Assembly: GCA_017463985.1 (NCBI GenBank)
Contig: JAFUEH010000006.1
Span: forward strand, 1 to 33,569
DNA: 33,569 nt
DNA from: Eubacterium sp.
GTDB lineage: Bacteria > Bacillota > Clostridia > Oscillospirales > Acutalibacteraceae
Reading direction: 5' to 3'
Part shown: positions 2,555 to 21,123 of the stretch, in pieces
How positions within the stretch are numbered: the stretch's first letter is position 1
Layout: each line of letters opens with the position of its first letter
Notes under the pieces: generated by a model
Database searches by the model: none
Seen by the model: only the letters and a program-made list of their open reading frames with translations
Told to the model about the DNA's origin: nothing
Made by a program: the position numbers and the translations under genes

Positions 2555-3982
2555 TTATTCCTTGAGCAGCGCTTTATACATCTTAATGTATTCGTTAGCG
2601 CTCTTGCCCCAGCTCATGTCGCACGCCAGTGCACGCTTAACGAGAATGTTCCAGCCTTCACGGTTTTGATAGCCCTCGATACCGCGATAAATGGCGCCGA
2701 GCATATCGTAAGCGTCATAGTTACGGAAGGTGAAGCCGTTGCCCTCGCCGTCACCGCTGTCGGTGATGGAATCCTTAAGGCCGCCGGTCTCACGCACAAT
2801 CGGGATCGTGCCGTACCGCAGTGCGATCATTTGTGACAGGCCGCACGGCTCGCTCTTGCTGGGCATTAAGAACATATCTGCGCCGGCATAGATTTTTCTG
2901 GAAAGCTCCGGAACAAAGCCGATCGTGATGCCGACCTTGTCAGGATATTTGTCATGCAGCTCTCTGAAGAAGCTCTCATACTGCCATTCTCCGGAGCCGA
3001 GCACCACGTACTGTACGTCGCGCTCCCACAGGCTCTTTTCCAGCACCTCTTTCATCAGGTCGAAGCCTTTGTGACCTGCTAAACGGGAGACAATGCCGAT
3101 CAGCGGTACATCGTCGCGCACGGCCATGCCCATCAGCTCCTGCAGCGCCTTTTTGTTTTTGGCTTTGGCTGCCTGGAAGTTGTCAGCATTGTAGTTGGCG
3201 GCGATATTTTTGTCTGTTTCCGGATTATAGCTGTCTGTGTCAATACCGTTCAGGATACCGCACAGCTTCCAGCTGCGCTGATTCAGGATCGGATCTAATC
3301 CGTGACTGAACCATGGGTCAAGAATTTCCTTGGCATACGTCGGAGAAACGGTAGTGACCTTATTGGCGCACTCAATGCCCGCCTTCATAAAGTTGACCAG
3401 TCCGTCGTACTGAATCAGGTTATAATATTCCGGCCCGATACCCAGCACGTCGCCCAGCAGCTCGTTGCCGTATTTGCCCTGATATTGAATGTTGTGAATG
3501 GTGAATACCGTTTTGATGTTTTCATAACCGGGTTGATTGGCGTAGAAAATACTGTAATACAGCGGCGTCAGCGCGCTCTGCCAGTCATTGCAGTGAATGA
3601 TGTCCGGCTTCCAGTCGAGGTGAGGAATAATCTCCAGCACGGCACGTGCAAAGAAAGCGAAACGCTCTGCGTCGTCATAATGACCGTAAATACCTTCGCG
3701 CTTGAAATAATACTGGTTATCCAAAAAATAATAGATAACGCCGTTGTGCTTAGCTTCAAAAATGCCGCAATACTGCCGCCGCCAGGATACCGGCACGGAA
3801 ATAGAGGTCAGGAAGGTCATTTTATCTTTGTATTCCTGCTTAATGGAATCGTATAGAGGCATGACCACTCGACAGCCGATCAGTCTTTTCCTGAGCGCGG
3901 CCGGCAGGGAACCGGCAACGTCCCCTAAACCGCCCGAAGCCATGAACGGAAGCGCTTCGGATGCTACATATAATACTTTCAT
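2555..3982 (-). CDS. glgA: Glycogen synthase (ADP-glucose type, GT5)
   Basis: GlgA transfers glucose from ADP-glucose to the growing alpha-1,4-glucan. The 475-aa length is normal. The N-terminal Rossmann domain starts MKVLYVASEALPF and the C-terminal domain has SEPCGLSQMIALRYGTIPIVRETGGL, including the conserved Glu of the EPCGL motif. The usual KTGGL motif (Lys15 in E. coli GlgA, contacting the sugar nucleotide) reads ASGGL at the same position (Ala15), so that lysine is absent. The start has AAGGAG at good spacing. It is the last gene of the glg operon, 11 nt after glgD, and ends at a bidirectional terminator. Confidence 0.94.
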   Translation of the reverse strand: MKVLYVASEALPFMASGGLGDVAGSLPAALRKRLIGCRVVMPLYDSIKQEYKDKMTFLTSISVPVSWRRQYCGIFEAKHNGVIYYFLDNQYYFKREGIYGHYDDAERFAFFARAVLEIIPHLDWKPDIIHCNDWQSALTPLYYSIFYANQPGYENIKTVFTIHNIQYQGKYGNELLGDVLGIGPEYYNLIQYDGLVNFMKAGIECANKVTTVSPTYAKEILDPWFSHGLDPILNQRSWKLCGILNGIDTDSYNPETDKNIAANYNADNFQAAKAKNKKALQELMGMAVRDDVPLIGIVSRLAGHKGFDLMKEVLEKSLWERDVQYVVLGSGEWQYESFFRELHDKYPDKVGITIGFVPELSRKIYAGADMFLMPSKSEPCGLSQMIALRYGTIPIVRETGGLKDSITDSGDGEGNGFTFRNYDAYDMLGAIYRGIEGYQNREGWNILVKRALACDMSWGKSANEYIKMYKALLKE

Positions 3983-3993
3983 AATGATTCTCC

Positions 3994-5118
3994 TTAGATG
4001 CGGGTATCCTTTGACAGGCTGACCGGGAAGTTCTCCGCGCCTGACAGCTCAATGCCGGATTTAATGTTTACGTTCTTATCTGCGATAATATAGTTCACCT
4101 TGGTGCCTTCTCCGATCACCGTGTCCTGCATGAGAATAGAATTTTTGACCACGGCGTCGGCCTCTACCTTAACGCCCTTGAAAATGATGCAGTTTTCGAC
4201 CGTTCCCTTGATTTCACAGCCGTCCGCGATCAGTGAGTTGTTGACCTTTGCCTCAGTGCCGTAAAGAGTAGGCATATCGTCGCGCTCCTTCGTATAGATC
4301 GGACGCTCCGGTGCAAACAGGCGATTTTTAATATCGCGGTTGAGCAGGCTCATGGAAATATCGTAGTAGCTCTGCACGCTGTCGATCGTGCCGACAAAGC
4401 AGTCTGTTGCGTCATAAGCATAAGCCTTGCCGCTCTTGATACAGTTCATCAAAATACTGCGCTGGAACGAAACCTCATTTTTAGAGTGCGCTGTGGTGAT
4501 CAGCGTTTGCAGCAAATACTTCTTTACCAGCACGATGTTGCAGGAATAGAAAACGTCCTCCTCGGCTGTCGGATCGATCGCGGCTTCCAGGATCTTACCG
4601 TCCTCGGCTACCTCGTTAAACACAAGCACCGAGCTGATGTTAGCCGGCTTTTTCCCCCTGACGCCGACGATGGTCACCGCGGCGCCGCTCTGCTCGTGTG
4701 CCTCAAACAATGCGTCATAGTCAATGCTGAGAATATTATTACAATCGGTCATCAGCACGTATTCCTGATTGCTTTGGTCAAGGAAGCCCATATTGCCGTA
4801 AATAGCGTCAATACGGTTGCCCCACATCGTGGTAGATGTCAGCGAATACGGCGGCAGCAGGTACAAGCCGTCTGTCTTTCTGGACAGATCCCATGGCTTG
4901 CCGGTGCCGACATGGTCCATCAGTGAATTAAAGTTTGCGTTGGTCACTACGCCGATTTTGGTAACACCGCTTTCTACCATGTTAGACAGTGGAAAGTCGA
5001 TCAGACGGTAACGGGAGCAGAAGGGAACAGAACCCATTGTACGCATATCCGTCAGCGCGCCGAGCGCTTCTTCGTGAATATTGGCAAAGATCATGCCAAG
5101 TACCTTTTTACCGTTCAT
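3994..5118 (-). CDS. glgD: GlgD, glucose-1-phosphate adenylyltransferase partner subunit
   Basis: GlgD is the second subunit of the Firmicute ADP-glucose pyrophosphorylase and associates with GlgC; in known systems it has little activity of its own and stimulates GlgC. The 374-aa protein starts [17 protein letters not shown]. The first loop reads [11 protein letters not shown] where GlgC has [11 protein letters not shown], so the nucleotide-binding signature is degenerate as expected for GlgD. The nucleotidyltransferase fold ([16 protein letters not shown]) and a C-terminal left-handed beta-helix region of hexapeptide-like repeats are present. The start was set at 5118, where AGGAGGT precedes the ATG. 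This ATG overlaps the glgC stop as ATGA, indicating translational coupling. A longer frame to 5214 is rejected. Confidence 0.93.
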
Positions 5119-6329
5119 GCGGATACCTCCTCTCCTGATGCAATCATTTCTTTCGGTGCGATTTTTGCACCTGTTTTGATCGTGGCCTTTGAGCCGATCA
5201 CGGCGATGCCCCATTCCTCCGGCTTTTCCAGCTGCTCCGGAATCTCGCCTACCTGTGCGCCGGCCTCAATGACAGCGTCCTCAGCGATGATGGAGTAATA
5301 AACCTTTGCACCCTTACCGATCTTTGCGCCGGGCATGATGACAGAATACTTGACCTCTGCGTCCTCCTCTACGATGACATCGGGGGAAATGACGGAATAA
5401 TCAATGCTGCCGTCGATTTCGCAGCCCTCACCGACGGAGGAATTCTCTACCACAGCCTTTTGACCGATATAGCTCGGCGGCGACATGGGATTGCGTGAGT
5501 AAATGCGCCAGCTCTTGTCGGACAGGTCAAGGTCTACATTCGGGTTGATGATGTCCAGATTGGCTTCCCACAGGGAGTCGATCGTGCCGACATCCTTCCA
5601 GTAGCCCTTGAACGGAAATGCAAACATCCGCTGACCGTCCGCCAGCATATTCGGGATAATGTTTTTGCCGAAGTCGTTGGAGGAATTCGGGTCTGCCTCG
5701 TCCTCAGTCAGATACTTTTTCAGCTTATCCCAGCTGAACACATAAACGCCCATAGAAGCCTTGTTTGATTTTGGCTCCTTCGGTTTTTCGGCAAATTCAT
5801 AGATCTGCTCGTTTTCGTCCGTTGCGAGAATACCGAAGCGGCTTGCTTCCTCCCACGGCACCTCCAGCACGGCGATGGTGCAGTCGGCATTGTTCTTTTT
5901 GTGGAACTCGATCATGTTGGCGTAATTCATCTTATAGATATGGTCGCCTGAGAGAATTACCACGTATTCGGGATCGTATTTTTCAATAAAGGTAATGTTT
6001 TGATAAATGGCGTTAGCAGTGCCCTTGTACCACTCTGCGCCGCCGATGGCTTCGTAGGGCGAGAGTACGTGAACGCCGCCGTTGATCCTGTCGAGGTCCC
6101 ACGGCTGTCCGTTGCCGAGGTAATCGTTGAGTACCAGCGGTTGGTACTGCGTTAATACGCCGACGGTATAGATACCGCTGTTTACGCAGTTTGAGAGCGG
6201 AAAGTCGATAATTCTGTAATTTCCGCCGTACGGAACTGCCGGCTTTGCAATGCTTTTTGTCAGTACGCCGAGCCGTGAGCCCTGACCGCCTGCCAAAAGC
6301 ATGGCTACAACATCTGTTTTGTGTGTCAT
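5115..6329 (-). CDS. glgC: Glucose-1-phosphate adenylyltransferase catalytic subunit
   Basis: GlgC makes ADP-glucose from glucose-1-phosphate and ATP, the committed step of glycogen synthesis. The 404-aa protein has the catalytic signature [14 protein letters not shown], then [20 protein letters not shown], the metal-binding SGDHIYKM, and FAEKP, whose Lys binds glucose-1-phosphate in the family. A C-terminal beta-helix follows. AGGAGG lies upstream of the ATG. It starts 18 nt after the glgB stop and overlaps glgD by 4 nt. Confidence 0.96.
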
Positions 6330-6347
6330 ACGTCAAATCCTCCTGTG

Positions 6348-8237
6348 TTATTTACTGTCATTGACTTTTTTTAGATAGATGGCAGAAAGACCGTGAAGCT
6401 TCAGGTCAATGCTCTGCTCGTGTGAATGAATTTTGATCGGAGCGGCGTGATACGTGCCGGAAAGCCGTTTTTTATCGCCGCCATAGCGCTCTAACGAGGT
6501 GTCCAGCACGACCTTATAGGTGCCGTTTTCCGGTACGCCGATCCGATAGCTGTCAAAGCTGTTCGGCGTCCAGTTAAATACCGCGATGAGCTCCTCGCCC
6601 TTTTTATTCTTTCTGCGGAAGGCGATGACGCTGTTGCTGTTGTCGTCGGCCGCGATCCACTCAAAGCCGTCCCAGCTATAATCAATTTCCCACAGCTCGC
6701 TGTGCGCCTGATAGAATTGATTCAGCTCGCGCGTAAAGCGCTGCAGTTTTGCGTGCTTATCATAATCCAGCAGCAGCCAGTCCAGTCCCTGCTTATAATT
6801 CCATTCAATGAACTGGCCAAATTCGCTGCCCATAAAAAGCAGCTTCTTGCCGGGGTGCGCAAACATATACGCCAAAAACAGCCTCATTCCGTCAAACTTC
6901 ATGTTGTATTCGCCCGGCATTTTATTCAGCAACGAGCGCTTGCCGTGTACGACCTCATCATGGCTGATCGGCAGCACAAAGTTTTCGGAAAACGCGTAGA
7001 AAAAGCTGAAGGTAATGCAGTTATGATTGCCCTTGCGGAACAGCGGATCCAGCGCGGTGTAGCGCAGCATATCGTTCATCCAGCCCATATTCCACTTGAA
7101 GTTAAAGCCGAGACCGCCGATGTCGGTCGGCATGGTGATCATCGGCCAAGCGGTGGATTCCTCAGCGATCATCATCACCTCCGGATGTTCCTTGAACATC
7201 GCGGCATTCAGCTGACGGAAAAAGTCAACCGCCTCTAAGTTTTCACGTCCGCCGTTTTTGTTGGGTACCCATTCTCCCTCCTTACGGCAATAATCAAGGT
7301 ATAGCATGGAGGCGACAGCGTCCACGCGCAGCCCGTCAAAGTGGTATTGATCCACCCAATACATGGCGGAGCTGATCAGAAATGAACGCACCTCTTTTTT
7401 ATTATAATCAAATACACGTGTGCCCCACTCCTTGTGCTCACCCTTGCGCGGATCACTGTATTCATAACAGCAGGTACCGTCAAATTCGTACAGGCCGTGT
7501 GCGTCCTTCGGGAAGTGCGCCGGTACCCAGTCCAGGATCACGCCGATGTTGGCGCGGTGACACGCGTCTACAAAGTACATCAGATCCTCCGGTACGCCGT
7601 AGCGGGAGGTCGGCGCAAAATAACCGGTGACCTGATAACCCCAAGAGCCGTCAAACGGGTATTCCATAATCGGCAGCAGCTCAATGTGCGTATAACCCAT
7701 TTCCTTTACATAAGGAACCAGCTGCTCCGCCATTTCGCGGTAGCTGAGAAAGCTGCCGTCTTCATGCTGTTTCCAAGAGCCAAAATGCAGCTCATAGATA
7801 TTGACAGGCTTTTCCAGTATGTTGCCGGTCCGGTTGCGCTGTTGCCATTTGGCGTCCTTCCACGGGTAAGCTGACAGCTCATATACCTTGGAGCCGGTGG
7901 CCGGACGTGTTTCCTGATGAACGCCGTAAGGATCTGCTTTCAGCAGCGTTTTGCCGTCCTTTGTCTGAATGGCATACTTGTAGCAATCGTAAACGTTGAC
8001 ATTGTCCACGATCGCCTCCCATATTCCCGGCGAAACAGGGAAGCAACGGTGCGCCTCGCTGTTCCAGCCGTTAAAGTCACCGACAACGCTGACAGCTTCC
8101 GCGTTCGGCGCCCATACCCTGAAAGCGTATTGCCCCTTGCTGATCTGATGAACACCAAAGAATTCATAAGCCTTATAATTTGTTCCGTCATGGAACAAAT
8201 AGATCGGCAGCTGGTATTCCTCCTTTACTTTTGCCAT
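6348..8237 (-). CDS. glgB: 1,4-alpha-glucan branching enzyme (GH13)
   Basis: GlgB introduces alpha-1,6 branches into glycogen. A CBM48-like N-terminal module is seen around residues 25-110 (FFGVHQ, FRVWAPNAEAVSVVGDFNGWN). The GH13 catalytic barrel follows, with the nucleophile Asp306 in DGLRVDAVASM, the acid/base Glu359 in MIAEEST, and the third acid in PISHDEVVHGKRSL. The 629-aa length is typical. The longest frame starts at 8321, but AAGGAG sits 8 nt before the ATG at 8237 and relatives begin near here, so 8237 is taken. It is the first gene of the operon. The promoter lies about 80 nt upstream, preceded by three repeated palindromes. Confidence 0.95.
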   Translation of the reverse strand: MAKVKEEYQLPIYLFHDGTNYKAYEFFGVHQISKGQYAFRVWAPNAEAVSVVGDFNGWNSEAHRCFPVSPGIWEAIVDNVNVYDCYKYAIQTKDGKTLLKADPYGVHQETRPATGSKVYELSAYPWKDAKWQQRNRTGNILEKPVNIYELHFGSWKQHEDGSFLSYREMAEQLVPYVKEMGYTHIELLPIMEYPFDGSWGYQVTGYFAPTSRYGVPEDLMYFVDACHRANIGVILDWVPAHFPKDAHGLYEFDGTCCYEYSDPRKGEHKEWGTRVFDYNKKEVRSFLISSAMYWVDQYHFDGLRVDAVASMLYLDYCRKEGEWVPNKNGGRENLEAVDFFRQLNAAMFKEHPEVMMIAEESTAWPMITMPTDIGGLGFNFKWNMGWMNDMLRYTALDPLFRKGNHNCITFSFFYAFSENFVLPISHDEVVHGKRSLLNKMPGEYNMKFDGMRLFLAYMFAHPGKKLLFMGSEFGQFIEWNYKQGLDWLLLDYDKHAKLQRFTRELNQFYQAHSELWEIDYSWDGFEWIAADDNSNSVIAFRRKNKKGEELIAVFNWTPNSFDSYRIGVPENGTYKVVLDTSLERYGGDKKRLSGTYHAAPIKIHSHEQSIDLKLHGLSAIYLKKVNDSK

Positions 8238-8316
8238 GCGTGATACTCCTTGTTGCTTAAATATCATCTTATTGATAGGAGCGTATATATAGACCCCCAT
8301 ATTAATTATTTTATAT

Positions 8317-8345
8317 ATCATAACATTAAAACCTGTCTAATGCAA
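8317..8345 (-). promoter_or_regulatory. glg operon promoter
   Basis: On the minus strand, -35 TTGCAT (8345-8340) and -10 TATGAT (8322-8317) are separated by exactly 17 nt. Transcription would start near 8310, giving a leader of about 70 nt before glgB. Confidence 0.7.
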
Positions 8346-12315: not shown

Positions 12316-12355
12316 GAATGTGTGAAAATGATGAAAACGAAAGGTGGTGAGGATC

Positions 12356-14176
12356 ATGCGCTATATTGACGTTCAGGAGGAAAAAGCACCGGTGCTGCGC
12401 AATATTTTTTATGCGCTCAAGACAGTTTGGCGTGCGGATAAATGGCTGCCGCTCGGCTATACGCTGGAGATGACGCTGGACTTTTTCTTTGACCTGTTTA
12501 TTCAAAACGTCCTGTTCTTAAAAGTGCTGCTGGGCGTGATTGAAGGGGAAAGCAGCTTCATCTATTATTTAAAATACTTGGGTCTGTTCGCCCTGCTGTC
12601 GCTGGCAACAAAGGGCGGCAGCTGGTATTTTGCGTACCGCGGCCATATTGCGGCAAAAAGTGCGCTGAAAAATATCAATCATCAGATCTTTGCCAAGGCG
12701 AGTACACTGGATATTGCCTGTTATGAAAATCCTGATTTTTACGACATCTATCAGCGTGCCTCCGAGGTGGTCAGCAAGGGCTATTACGATTTGTTCTGCG
12801 ACAGCTTTGCTATGATTGCCGGCAGCCTGCTGTCGCTCGTGCTGGTGGTGATCACGGTGGCGGCGATCGATCCGTATTATCTTCTCTTCTTAGCGCCGGT
12901 GCTGCTGGTGGTTGTGATCGAGCTGTTGAAAAGTAAGTACTGTTACAAACGCGATCTGGAAATGACGCATAATAACCGGGTAAAGGCCTACGTACAGCGC
13001 ACGGTGTTTTTGCGCGATTACGCAAAGGACATCCGTACCTCCAATATCTTTTTGGTGCTGCTACAGCGCTATCGCGGTGCCGTTAAGGCTAACGTGATGA
13101 TCCTGAAAAAGTATGGCGTCGGACTGTTCCTGTACAGCGTCGTCAGCACGCTGTTCAGCGATTTTTTGCCGATCATCGGCACGTATGCCTTTGCAGGCTG
13201 GCAGCTGATCCATACCGATCGGCTGAGCGTCTCAGGCTTTTCGGTAGTGCTGTCCTCCGTCAATTCCGTGCGCTGGGCGATGGGCGATCTGTCAGAGTGC
13301 TTTTCAGATGTATCCGAAATGGCGCTGTATTTTGAAAATCTCAAAAGGTTCTATGCGTATGAGCCGACGGTGACGGACGGTACGCTGGAGGCGAAAGCGT
13401 TTGAAACATTGGAGTTCCGTCATGTTTCCTTCCGCTATCCGGACGCGCCGCAAAATGCGTTGACGGATGTTTCCTTTACGCTGAAAAAAGGTGAAACGCT
13501 GGCGGTGGTAGGTGTGAACGGCGCCGGCAAATCAACGCTTGTCAAGCTGCTGCTCCGCTTCTATGACCCAACGGAGGGCGAAATTTATTATAACGGCGTC
13601 AGCCTGAAGGAATACAGAATCGAAAGCCTAAGAAACAGCTTTGCTACCGTGTTTCAGGATTACAAAAACTTTGCGGTATCGGTTTATGAAAACGTAATGT
13701 GCCGCGTGTGCGACGGGGACGATAAGGTCTTGGCGCGTCACGCATTGGAGCAAAGCGGCGCATGGGATAAGATCGCTACGCTGCCAAAGGACGGCGATAC
13801 CGTGCTGACGAGGGAATTTGAAAAGGACGGCGTCGGCCTGTCCGGCGGTGAAAATCAAAAGGTATCCGCGGCGAGGCTGTTCGCAGGTGATTTTGAGATC
13901 GCCGTGCTGGACGAGCCGTCCTCTGCACTGGATCCGATCGCAGAGCACCTGATGTATGAAAATCTCATGCAGGCGACGGAAAATAAGACGGTGCTCTATA
14001 TCTCTCACCGTCTTTCCAGTGCGGCCTTCAGCGACCGTGTTCTGGTGCTGGACGGCGGTCAAATCGCTGAGCAGGGAACGCATGAGACGCTGATGCAGCA
14101 GGGCGGCATCTACAGCCGGCTGTTTGCGCTGCAGGCCTCCAGCTATCAGGTGAAGGAGGTGGAGCAGAATGCATAA
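12356..14176 (+). CDS. ABC exporter half-transporter (TMD-NBD fusion), first subunit
   Basis: This 606-aa membrane exporter subunit has about six transmembrane segments (roughly residues 33-330) fused to an ATPase domain. Walker A is GVNGAGKST (386-393), the Q-loop is VFQD (Gln434), the signature is LSGGE (495-499), Walker B is IAVLDE (515-520) and the H-loop His is 551, so the site looks fully catalytic. No C39 peptidase domain is present, so it would not cleave a leader. The ATG at 12356 is 8 nt after AAGGTGG; GTG codons just upstream overlap that site. It overlaps the next ABC gene by 8 nt, implying a heterodimer. The substrate is unknown: drugs or peptides, including possibly the 28-aa peptide. 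Confidence 0.88.
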   Translation: MRYIDVQEEKAPVLRNIFYALKTVWRADKWLPLGYTLEMTLDFFFDLFIQNVLFLKVLLGVIEGESSFIYYLKYLGLFALLSLATKGGSWYFAYRGHIAAKSALKNINHQIFAKASTLDIACYENPDFYDIYQRASEVVSKGYYDLFCDSFAMIAGSLLSLVLVVITVAAIDPYYLLFLAPVLLVVVIELLKSKYCYKRDLEMTHNNRVKAYVQRTVFLRDYAKDIRTSNIFLVLLQRYRGAVKANVMILKKYGVGLFLYSVVSTLFSDFLPIIGTYAFAGWQLIHTDRLSVSGFSVVLSSVNSVRWAMGDLSECFSDVSEMALYFENLKRFYAYEPTVTDGTLEAKAFETLEFRHVSFRYPDAPQNALTDVSFTLKKGETLAVVGVNGAGKSTLVKLLLRFYDPTEGEIYYNGVSLKEYRIESLRNSFATVFQDYKNFAVSVYENVMCRVCDGDDKVLARHALEQSGAWDKIATLPKDGDTVLTREFEKDGVGLSGGENQKVSAARLFAGDFEIAVLDEPSSALDPIAEHLMYENLMQATENKTVLYISHRLSSAAFSDRVLVLDGGQIAEQGTHETLMQQGGIYSRLFALQASSYQVKEVEQNA

Positions 14177-15986
14177 AGCAGGGAAAAAAGAGCATTCCAC
14201 GGTATCCAATATTTTCTATTTTATCGGGCTGCTGTTCCGCATTTCACCGTTTTATGTGATCGGTGAGCTGTTATGGGGCGTGTGTATGTATTTGCCGCCG
14301 CGCCTCGTCAGCGTGCTGGGTGTGAAGTATATTATTGATGTGTATACCGGCGGCGAGCATTATGAAAGGATCTATTATGCTGTGGCCGTCATCGCAGCGG
14401 TTTTGGTGATCAGTCGCCTGCTGGCCTGGACCTTCCGTGAATTTTATTGGAATATCGGAAAGGAGCGTGTGTTTGCCGCACTGAGCGAGCAGCTGTATGA
14501 AAAGGCGCGTTCACTCGATCTAGAAAAATATGACGATCCCGATTATTATACCGATTTTATTCTGACGATCGAAAGCTCTGCCGAAAATGTGGAGCTGCTG
14601 ATGCATCTGGTGCGGAATTATTTTGCGGATGTGGTGTCGCTGATTACCGTTTCCTCTGTGATGCTGGCGATTGATCCGGTGTGCCTGCTGATTATTTTAG
14701 CGGTCGTGACGGCTTTTATACCGCTGTCAAAAAAGGTTGGTGCGCTGCAGATGAACCGCCGGACGGACAATGCAAAATACCACCGCCGATCGGATTATTT
14801 TCAGCGAATCTTCTACCTCCAGGATTATGCCAAGGAGGTGCGTATGAATGGGATCCGCCCGATGCTGACGGATAAATACGACGAGGCGGCGGAGGATGTG
14901 ATCGCTAACCAAAAGGGTTACTGGGGCAAGATCTCGCTGTACTATTTTTTGCAGGAGGCCGGTGTGCAGGTGCTGGGCTTTATGGTGCTGTTGCCGCTGT
15001 ATCTCGGCTACTTGGTGCTGGTAAAAAAATCAATCAGCGCCGGTGATTTTGTGGCGGCGTTCAACGGTGCGTACGGCATCGCGATGTCCGTGAATTTTAT
15101 CACTGTATGGGCAGTGGCGCGTTTTTCCGAACGGTCAAAAATGATTGAAAAATTCCGTGTGTTTCTGAACACGGAAAGCCGTATTAACGACGGCGATACC
15201 GCCGTCAGTGACGCCCTGCCGCAGGAACTTTGTATCGACCACTTGACCTTTACCTATCCCGGCAATGAGGAGCCGACCCTGCGCGATATCAGCCTGACGG
15301 TGAAGCCTTATGAAAAAATTGCGCTGGTGGGCTATAACGGTGCCGGTAAGACGACGTTGACGAACCTGCTGCTACGCCTTTACGACGTAGACAGCGGCAG
15401 TATTCGCATCGGCGGCGAGGATATCCGCAATGTCGCCGTTAAAGCCCACCGAGACCGCTTTGCTGTGGTATATCAGGACTTCCGGACGTATGCCTGTACG
15501 CTGGCAGAAAATGTGGCGATGGATGTTGCTCCTGATGAAAAGCAGGTCGCGCAGGCGCTGCAAAAGAGCGGCTTTCAGAAATCATTGCCGAACGGCGTCA
15601 ATACGGAGCTGCTGCGTGAATTCGATCAAAACGGCACGATGCTGTCAGGCGGCGAAGCACAGAAGGCGGCTGTGGCGCGTGTGTTCTGCAAGGGCTGTTC
15701 CTTTGCGATCTTAGATGAGCCGTCCGCTAACCTGGATCCCGTTGCGGAATATAACCTGAATCGGGCTATGATGGCCGCTGCGCACGATAAAACGGTGATC
15801 TTTATCTCTCACCGCTTGTCCACGACCGTGAATGCCGACCGGATTTATGTGATGGAAAACGGCCGTATCATCGAAAGCGGCACGCATGAGGCCCTGATGG
15901 CGCAGGACGGCGCTTATGCCTATATGTTCCGCCTCCAGGCTGAAAAGTATCAGAACGGCGCGGCCGACCAACCGCTGCAGATGTAA
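14169..15986 (+). CDS. ABC exporter half-transporter (TMD-NBD fusion), second subunit
   Basis: The 605-aa partner of the preceding gene has the same layout: transmembrane domain to about residue 330, then an ATPase with Walker A GYNGAGKTT (388-396), Q-loop VYQD, signature LSGGE (492-496), Walker B FAILDE (512-517) and H-loop His548. Both subunits keep the catalytic Glu and a canonical signature, unlike asymmetric heterodimers with one dead site. The two NBDs share the run REF...LSGGExQK, suggesting duplication. The ATG overlaps the upstream stop, with AAGGAGGTGGAG as ribosome site. A terminator follows. Confidence 0.88.
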   Translation: MHKAGKKEHSTVSNIFYFIGLLFRISPFYVIGELLWGVCMYLPPRLVSVLGVKYIIDVYTGGEHYERIYYAVAVIAAVLVISRLLAWTFREFYWNIGKERVFAALSEQLYEKARSLDLEKYDDPDYYTDFILTIESSAENVELLMHLVRNYFADVVSLITVSSVMLAIDPVCLLIILAVVTAFIPLSKKVGALQMNRRTDNAKYHRRSDYFQRIFYLQDYAKEVRMNGIRPMLTDKYDEAAEDVIANQKGYWGKISLYYFLQEAGVQVLGFMVLLPLYLGYLVLVKKSISAGDFVAAFNGAYGIAMSVNFITVWAVARFSERSKMIEKFRVFLNTESRINDGDTAVSDALPQELCIDHLTFTYPGNEEPTLRDISLTVKPYEKIALVGYNGAGKTTLTNLLLRLYDVDSGSIRIGGEDIRNVAVKAHRDRFAVVYQDFRTYACTLAENVAMDVAPDEKQVAQALQKSGFQKSLPNGVNTELLREFDQNGTMLSGGEAQKAAVARVFCKGCSFAILDEPSANLDPVAEYNLNRAMMAAAHDKTVIFISHRLSTTVNADRIYVMENGRIIESGTHEALMAQDGAYAYMFRLQAEKYQNGAADQPLQM

Positions 15987-15998
15987 TAAAATATCATT

Positions 15999-16035
15999 TC
16001 CGGCTTGCCGACAGTCAGGTAAGTCGGATTTTTTT
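15999..16035 (+). terminator. Terminator of the XRE-ABC operon
   Basis: An 11-bp stem (15999-16009 with 16018-16028, including two G-U pairs) and an 8-nt loop are followed by T7. Confidence 0.85.
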
Positions 16036-16047
16036 GTGGATTTGTTA

Positions 16048-16076
16048 TTGCTATATTATTACAAATATGTTATACT
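16048..16076 (+). promoter_or_regulatory. Promoter of the SCP2-aminotransferase-transketolase operon
   Basis: -35 TTGCTA (16048-16053), 17 nt, then -10 TATACT (16071-16076) preceded by an extended TG at 16068-16069. The start would be near 16083, about 55 nt before the first gene. Confidence 0.65.
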
Positions 16077-16095
16077 TTTTATGAATATTATTGTT

Positions 16096-16119
16096 TGATT
16101 TGTACAAATAGGCAAATCA
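16096..16119. promoter_or_regulatory. Palindrome and inverted repeat just downstream of the operon promoter
   Basis: A 12-bp perfect palindrome ATTTGTACAAAT (16098-16109) sits inside a larger inverted repeat TGATTTG (16096-16102) / CAAATCA (16113-16119). It lies about 13-37 nt beyond the predicted transcription start and just before the ribosome site AAAGGAGG. A repressor operator is likely; an RNA stem affecting translation is the alternative. Confidence 0.5.
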
Positions 16120-16137
16120 GGCTAAAGGAGGAATTTT

Positions 16138-16902
16138 ATGAAAGAAGCAAGAGCGATGGCGTTTGTCAATGCGTACGGCGTGCTCAGAACGCTGGAGAAT
16201 CTCTGCGACACGGTTGACGAAGCAAAGGCGGTCTGCCAAAGCCTGACAAAGCCGGTGGCACTGTGCTTTGACGTGACGGACGGCCCGTGCGTTACCTATC
16301 ATTTTTCAGCTGACGGCTGCCGCTTTTCCGAGGGGGATTACGGCTGTACCTGTAAAATGAAGTTTGCCTCACCGGAGAAGTTCAACGCCCTGATCGACGA
16401 CACTAAGCCCGGTATTCCCGTCAAAAATCCGATCCAGCTGATCCAGTTTTTGCTCGGCCCCTTTTCTAAGCTGACAGATATTTTAACCAAATACCTGATG
16501 CCAAAGGAGGAGGATTTAAAGAATCGGGATTTCTTTGAAACCTCAACGATTCTGACGATGTATACGATCGCCGGTGCGATCTGTGCGTTGGCAAACGAGG
16601 ATTCTATCAGCAAGGGTTCCGCTTCTTATATCGTTGACGGCGACGTGCAGATGGGTATCACTGACGCGGTATACGTTACCCTTCGCTGCCGTGACCACAA
16701 GCTGGAGCTGATCAAAGAAAAACCGGATACGCCGCGTGCTATCATGGAGTTCAAAACGATCGATCTTGCCTATGGTCTGTTCACCGGTACCGCCTCTACC
16801 ATGGCGGAGCTCTGCGCCGGCAATATCTATATGGCCGGTATGTGCAATATGCTTGATAACATCAACCGTATCCTCGACAGGGTTGCGGTATACTTAGGTT
16901 AA
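16138..16902 (+). CDS. SCP2-like (sterol-carrier-type) protein, bilobed
   Basis: This 254-aa soluble protein has no signal peptide. Residues about 40-125 and 145-250 each look like an SCP2-type lipid-binding module. The first has CFDVTDGPCVTYHF and CKMKFASPEKFNALIDD. The second has IVDGDVQMGITDAVYVTLRC, DHKLELIKEKPDTPRAIMEF, then GLFTGTASTMAELCAGNI. A linker LTDILTKYLMPKEED joins them. SCP2 folds bind acyl-CoAs or other hydrophobic ligands; here the ligand is unknown and the family call rests on pattern recognition. AAAGGAGG precedes the ATG. It is the first gene of a five-gene operon that ends with a second SCP2-like protein. Confidence 0.65.
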   Translation: MKEARAMAFVNAYGVLRTLENLCDTVDEAKAVCQSLTKPVALCFDVTDGPCVTYHFSADGCRFSEGDYGCTCKMKFASPEKFNALIDDTKPGIPVKNPIQLIQFLLGPFSKLTDILTKYLMPKEEDLKNRDFFETSTILTMYTIAGAICALANEDSISKGSASYIVDGDVQMGITDAVYVTLRCRDHKLELIKEKPDTPRAIMEFKTIDLAYGLFTGTASTMAELCAGNIYMAGMCNMLDNINRILDRVAVYLG

Positions 16903-16914
16903 GGAGGGACAGCA

Positions 16915-18186
16915 ATGAGTAAATATCCTGAATATACGCATGAAAAATCCAGAGAATGGTTTGACCGCGCGCTGAATGCAATTCCCTCCGGCATTTACGG
17001 CCATCTTGGTCCCTCCGAGGGCCTTTGGCTGCCGATCACGAAGTGGCCGCTGATGGGCGATCATGCCAAGGGTACTTATTTTTGGGATGTAGACGGCAAT
17101 AAATATCTCGATATGATGTGCGCCTACGGTCCGAACGTGCTCGGCTACTGTGACGACGATGTGGATAAGGCTGCGATGGAACAGCTGCGCATCGGTAACT
17201 GTACGACCTCGCCGTCATATAAGATGGTGGAGTGCGCCGAGCTGCTCAAGGACACGGTCGCTATGGCTGACTGGGCCTTCTTTATGAAGAACGGTTCTGA
17301 CGCAACGACCTTCTCCGTTATGTGCGCCCGTGCTCACACCGGTAAAAAGAAGATCATGTTCTTCAAGGGCTACTATCACGGCGATTTCCAGTGGTGTCAA
17401 AAGGCCGACTATCCCGGCATTATGCCCGAAGAGGTAGCCAACAATATTATTGTACCGTGGTTTGACTTGGACGCTATGCAGGCGGCGTATGACGCTTGCG
17501 GCGGCGATGTCGCCGGACTGATCGCACAGCCGTACGATCACGGTAACTTCTATGATAACGTCTGTGCTACCAAGGAGCAGTGGGCGGCGGTTCGCAAATT
17601 CTGCGACGATCACGGTATGGTACTGATCATCGACGATGTGCGCACCGGTTTCCGTCTGGACATTCAGGGCTCTGACCATTACTACGGCTTCAAGGCTGAC
17701 CTGATCTGCTTCTGTAAGGCGTTGGCTAACGGCTACAATATGTCCGCCGTCTGCGGTCAGGAGCATATCAAAAACACCGCCTCCTCCGTGGTATATACCG
17801 GTTCCTATTGGATGAGCGCCGAGCCGTTTGCGGCCTGCCTTGCCTGTATCCCGAAGATGAAGCGGCTGGATGTTCCGACTATGTTCCGTCAAAAGGGTAT
17901 TCAACTGACCGACGGCCTGAAGGCGGCCGGCAAGGAGCACGGCTTCGATTTAGTTGTTTCAGGTGAACCGGCGCTGTTCTATCTCAGAATTGCAAACGAC
18001 GACAGCCTGATGCTGCATCAGGAATGGGTGGCAGAATGTGTCAGCAGGGGTCTGTTCCTTGCCTCGCACCATAATCACTTTATCAATGCCTCGCTGCAGG
18101 ATGAGGATATTGCGCTGGCGATTGATATTGCAGAGGATGCGTTCGGCGTGGTGGCTGCCAACCATCCGGAATTAGATTTGAAATAA
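16915..18186 (+). CDS. Class III PLP-dependent aminotransferase, glutamate-1-semialdehyde aminotransferase-like
   Basis: This 423-aa PLP enzyme of fold type I has GTYFWDVDGNKYLDM near residue 53, the phosphate-binding NGSDAT (126-131), Tyr154-His155 (YYHGD) stacking on PLP, Asp240/241 in IIDDVRTGFR, and the Schiff-base Lys268 in DLICFCKALANGY. It would move an amino group to or within a keto or aldehyde substrate. It is not obviously HemL, since no haem genes are near and its ends differ. AAGGAGGG lies before the ATG, 12 nt after the SCP2-like gene. Its neighbours suggest it acts with the split transketolase; the substrate is unknown. Confidence 0.85.
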   Translation: MSKYPEYTHEKSREWFDRALNAIPSGIYGHLGPSEGLWLPITKWPLMGDHAKGTYFWDVDGNKYLDMMCAYGPNVLGYCDDDVDKAAMEQLRIGNCTTSPSYKMVECAELLKDTVAMADWAFFMKNGSDATTFSVMCARAHTGKKKIMFFKGYYHGDFQWCQKADYPGIMPEEVANNIIVPWFDLDAMQAAYDACGGDVAGLIAQPYDHGNFYDNVCATKEQWAAVRKFCDDHGMVLIIDDVRTGFRLDIQGSDHYYGFKADLICFCKALANGYNMSAVCGQEHIKNTASSVVYTGSYWMSAEPFAACLACIPKMKRLDVPTMFRQKGIQLTDGLKAAGKEHGFDLVVSGEPALFYLRIANDDSLMLHQEWVAECVSRGLFLASHHNHFINASLQDEDIALAIDIAEDAFGVVAANHPELDLK

Positions 18187-18230
18187 GCAAGCGCAGCAGA
18201 AAGACTTAAGAAAATTTTAACACAAAACCG

Positions 18231-18276
18231 CCGCGCGGTCGGCACTGTTGCACCGTAAAGGCAGCTGACGGCGCGG
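18231..18276 (+). promoter_or_regulatory. Long GC-rich hairpin between the aminotransferase and transketolase genes
   Basis: CCGCGC-G-GTCGGC (18231-18243) pairs with GCTGAC-G-GCGCGG (18264-18276), a 12-bp stem with one G-G mismatch and one G-U pair around a 20-nt loop. No T-run follows, so it is not a plain terminator. It may stabilise or process the mRNA, or be a cis-regulatory element in the 118-nt gap. Confidence 0.45.
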
Positions 18277-18304
18277 TATGTTTGAAAAAGAAAGGGGTAA
18301 TACT

Positions 18305-19198
18305 ATGCCGGCAGATTTCAAGCCGTTTGACAAACAGGAATGGCTCCGCCTTGAAAAAAAGGCCGATGAGCTGAGAAGATTAACCTTAAAAACCGCAATA
18401 TGGGGCGGATCCGGTCACGTGGGCGGCGCGCTGTCCTGTATGGACGCGATGACGATCTTATATCACCGCTTCATGAAGCTCGATCCGAAGGATTCAAAAA
18501 TGCCCGACAGAGATCGCTTTGTGCTTTCTAAGGGCCATGCGGCTGTCGGCTATGCGCCGGTGCTCGTGGACTTTGGCTATATGCCTGAGGAGGAGCTGCA
18601 TATCTTTAACCTGACGGGTGCGAAGATCGGTATGCACCTTGATTCTAATAAGGTGAACGGCTGTGAATTTTCCACCGGTTCGCTCGGTCACGGTATTTCT
18701 ATTGCGGTCGGCTTTGCGCTGGCGGGCAGAGTGAACGGGCTGGACTACATGAACTATGTCATTACCGGCGACGGCGAGATGAACGAGGGCTCTAACTGGG
18801 AGGCCATTATGGCAGCGGCTCAGTTCAAGCTTTCCAATGTGGTCGTTATGGTGGATAACAATAAGTGCATGATCGACGGCCGGACGGTTGACGAAATGAG
18901 CATTGAGCCGATCGACAAAAAGTTTGAGGCCTTTGGCTATATTGTTCACCGTGTCGACGGTCATAACATGAAAGAGCTGAACGACGCGATCGAAGCAGCC
19001 ATCAAGAACCATCAGGACGGCGGTGAGCAGCCGACAGCCATCATTTTGGATACCTTTAAGGGCGCCGGCGTTGACTTTATGCAGGATAATTATCTGTGGC
19101 ACTATGGCTCACTCGATGAGGAAAAAGCAAACCAGGCGTATGCATCGCTGGATAAATACTATAAAGAGCGCTGTGAACGCGCTGAAAAGGAGGCGTAA
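18305..19198 (+). CDS. Transketolase N-terminal (TPP-binding) subunit
   Basis: This 297-aa subunit of a split transketolase binds the thiamine diphosphate via GDGEMNEG (155-162) and DNNK. Conserved histidines are seen in GSGHVGG (His38), SKGHAA (His78) and STGSLGHG. It is about the N-terminal half of a full-length transketolase. It works with the next gene product to move two-carbon ketol units, or to form another carbon-carbon bond. The start at 18305 follows AAAGGGG; the longer frame from 18278 is not favoured. Two nt separate it from the C-terminal subunit gene. Whether it serves the pentose-phosphate pathway or a dedicated pathway is not decided by sequence. Confidence 0.92.
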   Translation: MPADFKPFDKQEWLRLEKKADELRRLTLKTAIWGGSGHVGGALSCMDAMTILYHRFMKLDPKDSKMPDRDRFVLSKGHAAVGYAPVLVDFGYMPEEELHIFNLTGAKIGMHLDSNKVNGCEFSTGSLGHGISIAVGFALAGRVNGLDYMNYVITGDGEMNEGSNWEAIMAAAQFKLSNVVVMVDNNKCMIDGRTVDEMSIEPIDKKFEAFGYIVHRVDGHNMKELNDAIEAAIKNHQDGGEQPTAIILDTFKGAGVDFMQDNYLWHYGSLDEEKANQAYASLDKYYKERCERAEKEA

Positions 19199-19200
19199 TT

Positions 19201-20211
19201 ATGGGCGGTATGACATATACAATGACAGATACGACGAAGCTGTCTACGGCGGAGTGCTACGGTATTGCGCTGTGTGAGCTCGGTGAGGAACACAAGGACG
19301 TTGTTGCGCTGACCGCCGATCTTGCCAAATCTACAAAGATCGGTATGTTTGGCGATCAATTCCCGGAGCGCTTTGTGAACGTAGGTATTGCCGAGCAGAA
19401 CCTGTTTACCGTTGCTGCTGCGATGGCGAAAAACGGTCTAGTTCCGTTTGCTTCTACCTTTGCAATTTTTGCTGCAGCCCGTTCGCTCGATCAGATCCAT
19501 ACGGATATTTGTTATCAGAATGTGCCGGTTAAGATCATTGCTACGCACGCTGGCACCTCCTTTGGCCAGGCAGGCTCTACGCATCACAGCCTGATCGATA
19601 TGACTTGTATGAGAGCGTTGCCGCACATGACCGTGATCTGTCCGTGCGACGGTTCGGAAACCTATCATGCGGTAAAGGCAGCTTATGATATTCCCGGCCC
19701 GGTATATATCCGTATTAACCGCGGCTTTGATCAGGTGATCTATAAGAACGTGGAGGACTGCCACTTTGAATGGGATAAGGCCAGCATCATGAACGAGGGA
19801 ACGGATATTACCGTGATCGCTTGCGGCTCCTGTGTATTCGAAGCGATGCAGGCAGCCAGGATGGTGGAAGCTGACGGCGGCATTAAGGTCCGCGTGATCA
19901 ATATGCATACGATCAAGCCAATCGATGAAGAAGCGGTTTTGAATGCCATCATGGATACACGCCGCATCATCACCGTCGAGGATCATGAGATTCAGGGCGG
20001 TCTTGGCTCAGCGGTAGCAGAGGTCGTTGCCAAGAGCGGTAAGGCCTGCGCTTTCAAGATGCTCGGCCATGACAATGCGTTCTCTACGATCGGCCTGCAG
20101 GAGGATCTGCTGGCGCTTGCTAAGATTGACGCCAACGGCATTGCAGAAGCGATTTCAGAGGTTATGCACGCTGACTTTGAGGCAGACGATGCATGGGACG
20201 ACGAGTTCTGA
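19201..20211 (+). CDS. Transketolase C-terminal subunit
   Basis: This 336-aa protein is the partner of the preceding gene. The pyrimidine-binding domain contains FVNVGIAEQNL with Glu65, which activates the TPP aminopyrimidine ring, and THAGTSFGQAGSTHHSLID in the position of the sugar-binding loop. The C-terminal domain has VINMHTIKPIDEEA and ITVEDHEIQGGLGSAVAEV. AAGGAGG is spaced 7 nt from the ATG. It is in the same operon as the SCP2-like proteins and the aminotransferase. Confidence 0.92.
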   Translation: MGGMTYTMTDTTKLSTAECYGIALCELGEEHKDVVALTADLAKSTKIGMFGDQFPERFVNVGIAEQNLFTVAAAMAKNGLVPFASTFAIFAAARSLDQIHTDICYQNVPVKIIATHAGTSFGQAGSTHHSLIDMTCMRALPHMTVICPCDGSETYHAVKAAYDIPGPVYIRINRGFDQVIYKNVEDCHFEWDKASIMNEGTDITVIACGSCVFEAMQAARMVEADGGIKVRVINMHTIKPIDEEAVLNAIMDTRRIITVEDHEIQGGLGSAVAEVVAKSGKACAFKMLGHDNAFSTIGLQEDLLALAKIDANGIAEAISEVMHADFEADDAWDDEF

Positions 20212-20247
20212 TTCCGACTTTATAACGGCTGAAAGGAGTTGTATTCT

Positions 20248-21045
20248 ATGCCATCTGATGAAGTTCGTTACGCGAACAAAGTGTTTATGGCAGGGGCATT
20301 GCCGCTGATGAAAACGATTGCCACCGATGTCCCGTCACTGAAAAAGAAATTTGAAGGCGTGAACGCCATTTATCAGGTTTCCGCCATGGTGAACGCCGAG
20401 GATAAAGAAGCGGTACATTTCATTGTTGAAAACGGCGAGTGGACAGTCAAGCTCGGCGAATACCTCGGGCAGCAAAAAATTGACGGCGAGCTGGCTTTTT
20501 CCTCGATGGAAAAGATGAATGCTTTCATGAAAGGCGATATGACGAAGCTGCCAAAGATGAAAATCAAATCGCTCGGTAAGTTCGTTAAGTTCATGATGGT
20601 GCTGCTCAAGATGTCCGATCTGCTCGGCATCAAGGAGCCGCCGGAGAATGACGAGGAAACCTCTGTGTTGCTGTGTAAGCTGTATTTTTACCTGCTTTCC
20701 TCGGGTATTTCTCAGCTCAACAAGTTGGGCCATCCGCAGATCCATGATTGGGCGCTCAAGTCTCCTGACCGCTGCTATCAGTGGGAGGTTGTCGGTCATC
20801 CGGAGTGTACGGCGTACATCCGTATTAAGGCCGGCAAGTCGAGAGCGGGCAGAGGTGCTTACAAGCGCGCTAAACCGTTCTTCTGCATGAAGTTTGACTC
20901 TCCGACCTCTGCGCTGAAGATCCTGCTCGGGACGGGCGATATGTTCCAGATGACAGCGGATCAGCAGCTGATGATGGAGGGCGGTCCGGAGTTCGGCGTA
21001 CAAATTGGTGATTATATGATGATCGTCGGGGATTTAGCGACTTGA
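20248..21045 (+). CDS. Second SCP2-like protein
   Basis: This 265-aa soluble protein has the same two-lobe plan as the first gene of the operon but is divergent. Lobe one has AVHFIVENGEWTVKLG and KIDGELAFSSMEKMNAFMKGD. A linker MVLLKMSDLLGIKEPPEND follows. Lobe two has CYQWEVVGHPECTAYIRIKAG, then MKFDSPTSALKILLGTGDM and a closing EFGVQIGDYMMIVG. The ligand is unknown. It is read as a probable lipid or hydrophobic-intermediate binder by position and pattern only. The start at 20248 follows AAAGGAG; a TTG three codons upstream overlaps that site. A terminator follows. Confidence 0.55.
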   Translation: MPSDEVRYANKVFMAGALPLMKTIATDVPSLKKKFEGVNAIYQVSAMVNAEDKEAVHFIVENGEWTVKLGEYLGQQKIDGELAFSSMEKMNAFMKGDMTKLPKMKIKSLGKFVKFMMVLLKMSDLLGIKEPPENDEETSVLLCKLYFYLLSSGISQLNKLGHPQIHDWALKSPDRCYQWEVVGHPECTAYIRIKAGKSRAGRGAYKRAKPFFCMKFDSPTSALKILLGTGDMFQMTADQQLMMEGGPEFGVQIGDYMMIVGDLAT

Positions 21046-21074
21046 TCCATACCCTATAGCATAACATAATGAGA

Positions 21075-21108
21075 GAGGCTACCTTGCGAAAACAAGATAG
21101 CCTCTTTT
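21075..21108. terminator. Terminator of the SCP2-transketolase operon, also facing DAHP synthase
   Basis: A 12-bp stem with one mismatch (21075-21086 with 21093-21104, GAGGCTACCTTG / CAAGATAGCCTC) is followed by TTTT on the plus strand. It lies between convergent genes and may work weakly in the other direction. Confidence 0.85.
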
Positions 21109-21123
21109 GTGTTTTGAAGGTAT

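Follow-up and report, generated by a model that had tools for sequence, protein, structure and literature searches.

A conserved five-gene cassette of gut Clostridia joins a FumI-like aminotransferase and a divergent split transketolase to two SCP2-like proteins: a tentative pathway for sphingoid-type amino-diols

Known routes to and from sphingoid bases, the most common 2-amino-1,3-diols in nature and plentiful in the gut, rely on serine palmitoyltransferase for synthesis and on sphingosine-1-phosphate lyase for breakdown; the latter is a pyridoxal phosphate (PLP)-dependent lyase that acts on the phosphorylated base, releasing a fatty aldehyde and phosphoethanolamine. Here, we describe a five-gene cassette from Eubacterium sp. 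(assembly GCA_017463985.1) within a 33,569 nt stretch of DNA (contig JAFUEH010000006.1; hereafter, the window) that makes up one entire contig of a 2.58 Mb genome of 97 % completeness. Its five plus-strand open reading frames (ORFs; 16138–21045) encode an SCP2-like protein (SCP2-A), a class III aminotransferase (AT), the N and C subunits of a transketolase (TK-N and TK-C) and a second SCP2-like protein (SCP2-B), and all were found in the order given by an earlier, sequence-only reading. We tentatively propose that the five genes encode a single short pathway acting on a hydrophobic 2-amino-1,3-diol, likeliest a sphingoid base such as sphinganine, with the two enzymes acting in series; the substrate, the order of the steps, their direction and the role of the carriers are what we infer from the evidence below. 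Like the lyase route, such a pathway would yield a fatty aldehyde; unlike it, the AT followed by the transketolase would deliver a sugar phosphate.

The closest described counterpart of the AT is FumI, the hydrolysed-fumonisin (aminopentol) aminotransferase of Sphingopyxis (6HBS), which is likewise a class III PLP enzyme, matches the window's protein over its full length with motifs in common and is reported to deaminate hydrolysed fumonisin B1, a long chain with 2-amino and 3-hydroxy groups, at C2, with pyruvate as amino acceptor (PMC2933618). The FumI substrate lacks the 1-hydroxyl group, whereas that proposed for the AT is a 1,3-diol, and three plasmid-borne relatives of FumI have no annotated transketolase within 9 kb, unlike the cassette. 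For both transketolase subunits, the best solved relative is the split-chain enzyme of Carboxydothermus hydrogenoformans (6YAJ, 6YAK), also formed of two subunits; its residues at the places of R358 and D469 (TktA numbering, used throughout) are Arg and Asp, whereas the window's enzyme has Ala at both. The same two reactions have been placed in series in engineered transketolase–transaminase cascades leading to chiral amino-alcohols, which are described as man-made systems operating in the direction of synthesis (PMC5813273), whereas the pair in the cassette occurs naturally, is inherited together and comes with SCP2-fold partners. Finally, compared with SCP2 (sterol carrier protein 2) itself and with the SCP2-type domain of the alkylsulfatases SdsA1 and Pisa1, the window's protein is an apparent tandem duplicate in one chain, and the window's two proteins lie below Pfam detection and are partnered with a thiamine diphosphate (TPP) enzyme and a PLP enzyme.

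The five genes are not chance neighbours. A scan of named genomes returned 252 relatives of SCP2-B, and in the 81 loci formed by the window and the best 80 of these, the complete set was present in 67, with the window's order in 63 and the order TKN-TKC-SCP2B-SCP2A-AT in the other four (L108–L111). Partial sets occurred in 14 loci, 13 of which are interrupted by a contig end within 161 bp. Many of our genomes (G numbers) and named loci (L numbers) are identical records, for example G004 and the locus L097 of the cultured cholesterol reducer Eubacterium coprostanoligenes, which carries the cassette. The full cassette was also found in three genomes from two genera of other classes (G949, G808 and G1028), showing that conservation of the gene order reaches well past close relatives, which was a point that the sequence-only reading had put forward for checking. 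The flanking genes are varied across 76 loci, suggesting that the cassette is self-contained. In one locus counted among the 63 (L065:102–1155), SCP2-A is broken into two ORFs in an otherwise full cassette, reflecting either a frameshift or an assembly error.

The two SCP2-like genes are also linked in their distribution. Within a sample of 60 genomes (the window's own, 36 others of the same genus and 23 of the order), SCP2-A was present in 28 and SCP2-B in 26; both occurred together in 26, neither in 32 and SCP2-B alone in none, while the two genomes with SCP2-A alone are incomplete (79 and 68 %). Among the other same-genus genomes, 27/36 possess SCP2-A; of the nine SCP2-A-less genomes of this genus, six were searched for the AT, and all six gave only distant homologues (110–136 bits, vs 668–786 for cassette ATs). 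SCP2-B is rare in wider, evenly drawn samples, occurring in 5/245 genomes of the order, 6/391 of the class and 5/398 of the phylum, with the window's own genome counted each time; one of the six matches in the class is weak (G469, 21 bits), with no transketolase or AT adjoining.

The AT is assigned to Aminotran_3 by Pfam (4.1e-37), and its closest solved relative is FumI (6hbs, E value 3.4e-78, residues 13–416), followed by glutamate-1-semialdehyde (GSA) aminomutases from 1.1e-42. The motifs CAYGPN, KNGSDAT, DDVRxGFR, ANGY and TGSxW are common to the AT and FumI, and in a 17-row alignment, K268 is invariant and the motif residues are invariant or nearly so. A tree of 17 rows placed 11 cassette ATs and four FumI-like enzymes in one group, separate from HemL and GabT, with support of 99/99, the outgroup branches being long. 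An identity as HemL, the GSA aminomutase, was considered and rejected, as the AT scored 177 bits against the cut-off of 527 for the TIGR00713 equivalog model. These comparisons suggest that the AT belongs with FumI, a deaminase of a sphingoid-like amino-alcohol, which is the basis of its predicted function.

The transketolase retains its catalytic residues but has an altered substrate site. TK-N and TK-C both display clear Pfam matches (6.3e-44 for the former; 2.7e-40 and 1.9e-27 for the latter), and 18 positions were compared across 91 cassette transketolase sets, representing 75 distinct sequences. Fourteen are unchanged in 91/91 sets, namely H26, H66, H100, D155, E160, N185, H261, E411, H461 and H473, which we take to have the TPP/Mg-binding and catalytic roles known from TktA, together with G154, S385, F434 and R520; the other four compared positions are 187, 358, 464 and 469. 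R91N, G262Y, L466F and D469A each occur in every set, and R358, presumably a phosphate-binding residue, is replaced in all of them (A in 89, S in one and T in one), such that none of the 91 sets has the Arg358 and Asp469 of ordinary transketolases. In the window's own enzyme, TK-N keeps the catalytic and TPP residues with R91 changed to N, and TK-C keeps E411, H461, H473 and R520, with both R358 and D469 changed to A. For comparison, we used the 30 best-scoring loci from 59 genomes as controls, of which 24 were of transketolase type by motif, four of DXS type and two of E1-beta type; R358 and D469 are kept in 24/24 of the transketolase-type loci. Four further sets from other classes carry R91N and D469A with G, G, A and R (the last in G809) at position 358, and H261 falls in an alignment gap in these, the remaining positions shown being kept.

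Published work on these positions helps to interpret the changes. In the E. coli transketolase, D469 and R91 are reported to form a salt bridge and S385 to touch the phosphate of the substrate (PMC5073344, PMC6310800), while D469E and D469T, as well as the equivalent changes in the yeast enzyme, are reported to increase activity on aliphatic aldehydes (PMC5573996). With S385, H461 and R520 retained, the cassette enzyme could still take a sugar phosphate as its other substrate. The sequence-only reading had suggested that TPP-dependent carbon–carbon chemistry and a PLP enzyme act on a lipid-like amino-alcohol, and this is partly supported, fitting both the affinity of the AT for FumI and the altered transketolase pocket. 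Its alternative, an ordinary pentose-phosphate transketolase with unrelated neighbours, can be extended to a GSA-aminomutase-like enzyme and the chance proximity of two unrelated proteins; the catalytic residues of the transketolase are indeed kept, and the AT does match GSA aminomutase models, albeit under the cut-off. However, the window's genome holds a second, ordinary split transketolase elsewhere, which keeps R91, R358 and D469 (S385 being replaced by A), as that reading had proposed to check, and the invariable R91N and D469A, the persistence of the five genes together across classes and the greater closeness of the AT to FumI than to HemL all contradict it. We consider this explanation very improbable.

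The window's own SCP2-A and SCP2-B proteins returned no match to the SCP2 family (PF02036) in Pfam. PF02036 was, however, matched by 11/27 members of the SCP2-A alignment (best E value 2.5e-7) and, weakly, by 4/26 members of the SCP2-B alignment (best 0.0018). The structure model of SCP2-A adopts an SCP2 fold, as the sequence-only reading had anticipated, probably as a tandem double domain. A profile–profile comparison of SCP2-B with SCP2-A gave an E value of 1.6e-9 over 218 columns, most of the length of SCP2-B, suggesting that it is an SCP2-like homologue of SCP2-A. A separate single-domain SCP2 protein of about 110 aa is encoded in E. coprostanoligenes (G004:C22:41886–42155), approximately 420 bp beyond the cassette on the opposite strand, and in the window's own genome (G000:C16:87978–88241).

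SCP2 folds carry many ligands, and the same enzyme series might have a substrate other than a sphingoid base: a different amino-alcohol or amino-ketone of hydrophobic or aromatic character, for example a small signal molecule or a 2-amino-1,3-diol with a branched or aryl group. The aromatic residues at the transketolase channel (G262Y and L466F) and the modest identity between the ATs and FumI would fit such a substrate, as would the reported acceptance of aromatic aldehydes by a TktA variant with D469T (PMC5073344). Against this, FumI is by far the nearest solved relative of the AT, and the presence of two SCP2-type partners suggests a long chain; we regard a substrate of this kind as distinctly unlikely.

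The cassette appears to be built from two modules. In G809 and G088, the set lies at two places as [SCP2-A, AT] and [TKN, TKC, SCP2-B], L129 has the second of these without the first as its neighbour and L108–L111 differ from the window's order by an exchange of exactly these two blocks. In four distant loci (L146:3043–9463, L147, L148:6023–11075 and L149:1273–6329), which belong to other families of the class and of which three come from a single genus, TKN-TKC-SCP2B precedes genes for a zinc alcohol dehydrogenase and a MerR regulator, the latter cut by a contig end in L147. Neither AT nor SCP2-A adjoins the transketolase module in these loci, and searches of their genomes found neither SCP2-A nor a cassette-type AT: the lone SCP2-A match, in G518, is that genome's SCP2-B, and the single relative of the AT, at 206 bits, is located elsewhere in G484. 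The two transketolases compared from these variants have R91N and D469A, keep R358 and carry F434M. Taken together, the block-wise breaks and variants suggest that each enzyme has its own dedicated SCP2 partner, and the zinc alcohol dehydrogenase could possibly replace the AT as the ketone maker. L146 and the transketolase module of G088 (L043) additionally encode related aldehyde dehydrogenases (49 % identity), as would be expected if an aldehyde is produced; among the genomes searched, orthologues were found only in G088 and G481, with a fragment in G317.

In the proposed pathway, SCP2-A would hold the long-chain amine while the FumI-type AT transfers the amino group at C2 to a 2-oxo acid, leaving a long-chain 1,3-dihydroxy-2-ketone. 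By established chemistry, a 2-amino-1,3-diol deaminated in the manner of FumI becomes HOCH2-CO-CH(OH)-R, the pattern that transketolases recognise in a donor. The divergent split transketolase would then load the C1–C2 glycolaldehyde unit of this ketone on TPP and hand it to an aldose phosphate, with the product R-CHO, a fatty aldehyde, being held by SCP2-B. The head group would enter the pentose phosphate pathway as a sugar phosphate, making sphingosine kinase or sphingosine-phosphate lyase unnecessary. The loss of residues that read an ordinary sugar phosphate, together with the two SCP2-type partners, would suit an alkyl chain as R. Both steps are reversible in principle, and breakdown seems weakly the likelier direction, given that the variants carry dehydrogenases of oxidative type.

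In the building direction, the transketolase would join the C2 unit of a ketose phosphate to a fatty aldehyde and the AT would aminate the resulting 1,3-dihydroxy-2-ketone to a sphingoid base, bypassing serine palmitoyltransferase. Reversibility in principle, the frequency of SCP2-A within the genus, as for a near-core function, and the scarcity of the variants' aldehyde dehydrogenase among cassette-bearing genomes are consistent with this, and engineered transketolase and transaminase cascades are reported to yield amino-polyols in this direction (PMC5813273). Plasmenylethanolamine, a possible source of fatty aldehyde, is described as being needed and consumed by the cholesterol-reducing Eubacterium 403, but the same source describes growth of E. 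coprostanoligenes ATCC 51222 without it (PMC8468837). The oxidative-type dehydrogenases argue in the opposite direction, and the recurring flank genes include no recognised N-acyltransferase or other gene of lipid assembly. To our knowledge, moreover, no sphingolipid of these Clostridia has been described, and we consider the building direction unlikely.

Several observations weigh against a sphingoid-base pathway in either direction or against parts of it. Despite the presence of the PLP lysine and the FumI motifs, the cassette ATs are only 34–42 % identical to FumI (35 % for the window) and do not reach the 61–74 % identity reported among enzymes proven on fumonisin (PMC9858248). Since G809 and the alcohol-dehydrogenase variants retain R358, only the loss of R91 and D469 is universal. 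The variants reported in PMC5573996 carry E and T, not A, at position 469, and the same paper stresses that an apolar site is not required. The assignment of SCP2-B is derived from sequence comparison only, and the 81 loci, having been selected by SCP2-B, report on its companions and not on the frequency of the other genes without it. Nine cassette-bearing genomes (the window's own, G000, and G004, G024, G026, G244, G272, G808, G809 and G1028) lack an orthologue of the variants' aldehyde dehydrogenase, the best match having 28 % identity (G004). Lastly, neutral ceramidase (PF04734) did not exceed the cut-off in 10 genomes (two weak matches), leaving free sphingoid bases without an obvious source, although the 14 control genomes of that search gave none either.

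The enzymes of the cassette come from known families, and the pathway that they imply appears to be new, with no system known to us under which to file it. In the open-access literature surveyed, the gene set appears undescribed judging by titles and the openings of abstracts, most subscription papers being outside that scope; the main text of a paper on cholesterol reducers (PMC7435688) contains no word starting with 'sphing', 'transketolase' or 'SCP2'. Hosts of the cassette among the 81 Clostridial loci derive from gut samples of goat, cattle, deer, sheep, buffalo, horse and others, in addition to E. coprostanoligenes. It is conceivable, at a little under even confidence, that gut Clostridia, this species among them, use fatty aldehydes and sugar phosphates as starting materials for sphingolipid backbones, with no serine palmitoyltransferase involved, or else run the route backwards and break such backbones down into fatty aldehyde and sugar phosphate, with a dedicated SCP2-type carrier for each enzyme. 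If so, a lipid-acting transketolase would put a central enzyme of sugar metabolism to a new use and would be nature's version of the chemists' transketolase–transaminase cascades, with a bearing on the fate of host and bacterial sphingolipids among gut bacteria.

The layout of the locus (Table 1) suggests that the five genes are carried on one transcript. With the listed starts, the intergenic gaps are 12, 118, 11 and 36 nt, and the 118-nt gap ahead of TK-N folds no better than shuffled sequences (z −0.6). A single promoter and a single terminator had been predicted to bracket the genes; the terminator is well supported, as 0/200 shuffles gave an equally good hairpin, whereas the promoter is plausible, given that matches of this grade are commoner than expected (20 in 10 kb of the region over both strands, with 10.2 expected).

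Table 1. Features of the cassette and its borders in the window
Feature	Position	Strand	Details
Terminator-like hairpin	15999..16028	+	−19.0 kcal/mol, z −3.7, then T run; separates upstream ATP-binding cassette (ABC)-exporter genes from the operon
Sigma-70-like promoter candidate	16048..16076	+	TTGCTA-17-TATACT, TG ahead of second hexamer; 9/12 match, weak
SCP2-A, SCP2-fold protein, probably tandem double domain	16138..16902	+	254 aa
AT, class III PLP aminotransferase, groups with FumI	16915..18186	+	423 aa; PLP lysine K268 by family alignment
TK-N, transketolase N subunit, TPP-binding	18305..19198 (alternative start 18278)	+	297 aa
TK-C, transketolase C subunit	19210..20211 (alternative start 19201)	+	333 aa
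SCP2-B, second SCP2-like protein	20248..21045 (alternative TTG start 20239)	+	265 aa
Intrinsic-terminator hairpin	21069..21110	+	−21.2 kcal/mol, z −6.2; between the operon and a convergent 3-deoxy-D-arabino-heptulosonate 7-phosphate (DAHP) synthase gene

Other loci contained clusters reminiscent of the cassette. On plasmid pShin-08 of Shinella sp. HZN7 (L152:599–10227), a FumI-like aminotransferase, one of the three plasmid-borne relatives noted above, lies near acetoin-dehydrogenase-type E1 and E2 genes, while L207:4122–12217 (G088:C56) encodes a sigma-54 activator, an aldehyde dehydrogenase, a short-chain dehydrogenase/reductase, an E2 acyltransferase, an SCP2 protein above the Pfam cut-off and E1-alpha/beta, amounting to a TPP enzyme that resembles acetoin dehydrogenase and has an SCP2 protein to itself. 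By analogy with the cassette, these clusters could cleave 2-keto-3-hydroxy compounds by means of a TPP enzyme.

Among the genes surrounding the cassette, an NAD-dependent epimerase/dehydratase-like gene is located 12–74 bp downstream of SCP2-B in one sub-lineage (L041:12002–13021, L133:4082–5179 and L136:10872–11891; family match checked for L041 only), and two genomes from a single genus of another class (L161:8600–9250 and L162:6128–6778) have a TetR-family regulator gene on the cassette's strand, 327 bp downstream of it. In the window itself, two neighbouring ABC exporter-type genes (12344–15986; the first identified by Pfam, the second by eye) lie immediately upstream of the operon and are followed by their own terminator-like hairpin, and the minus strand at 2555–8321 carries glycogen-type genes, comprising a starch synthase-type glycosyltransferase, two nucleotidyl transferases and a branching enzyme-type amylase.

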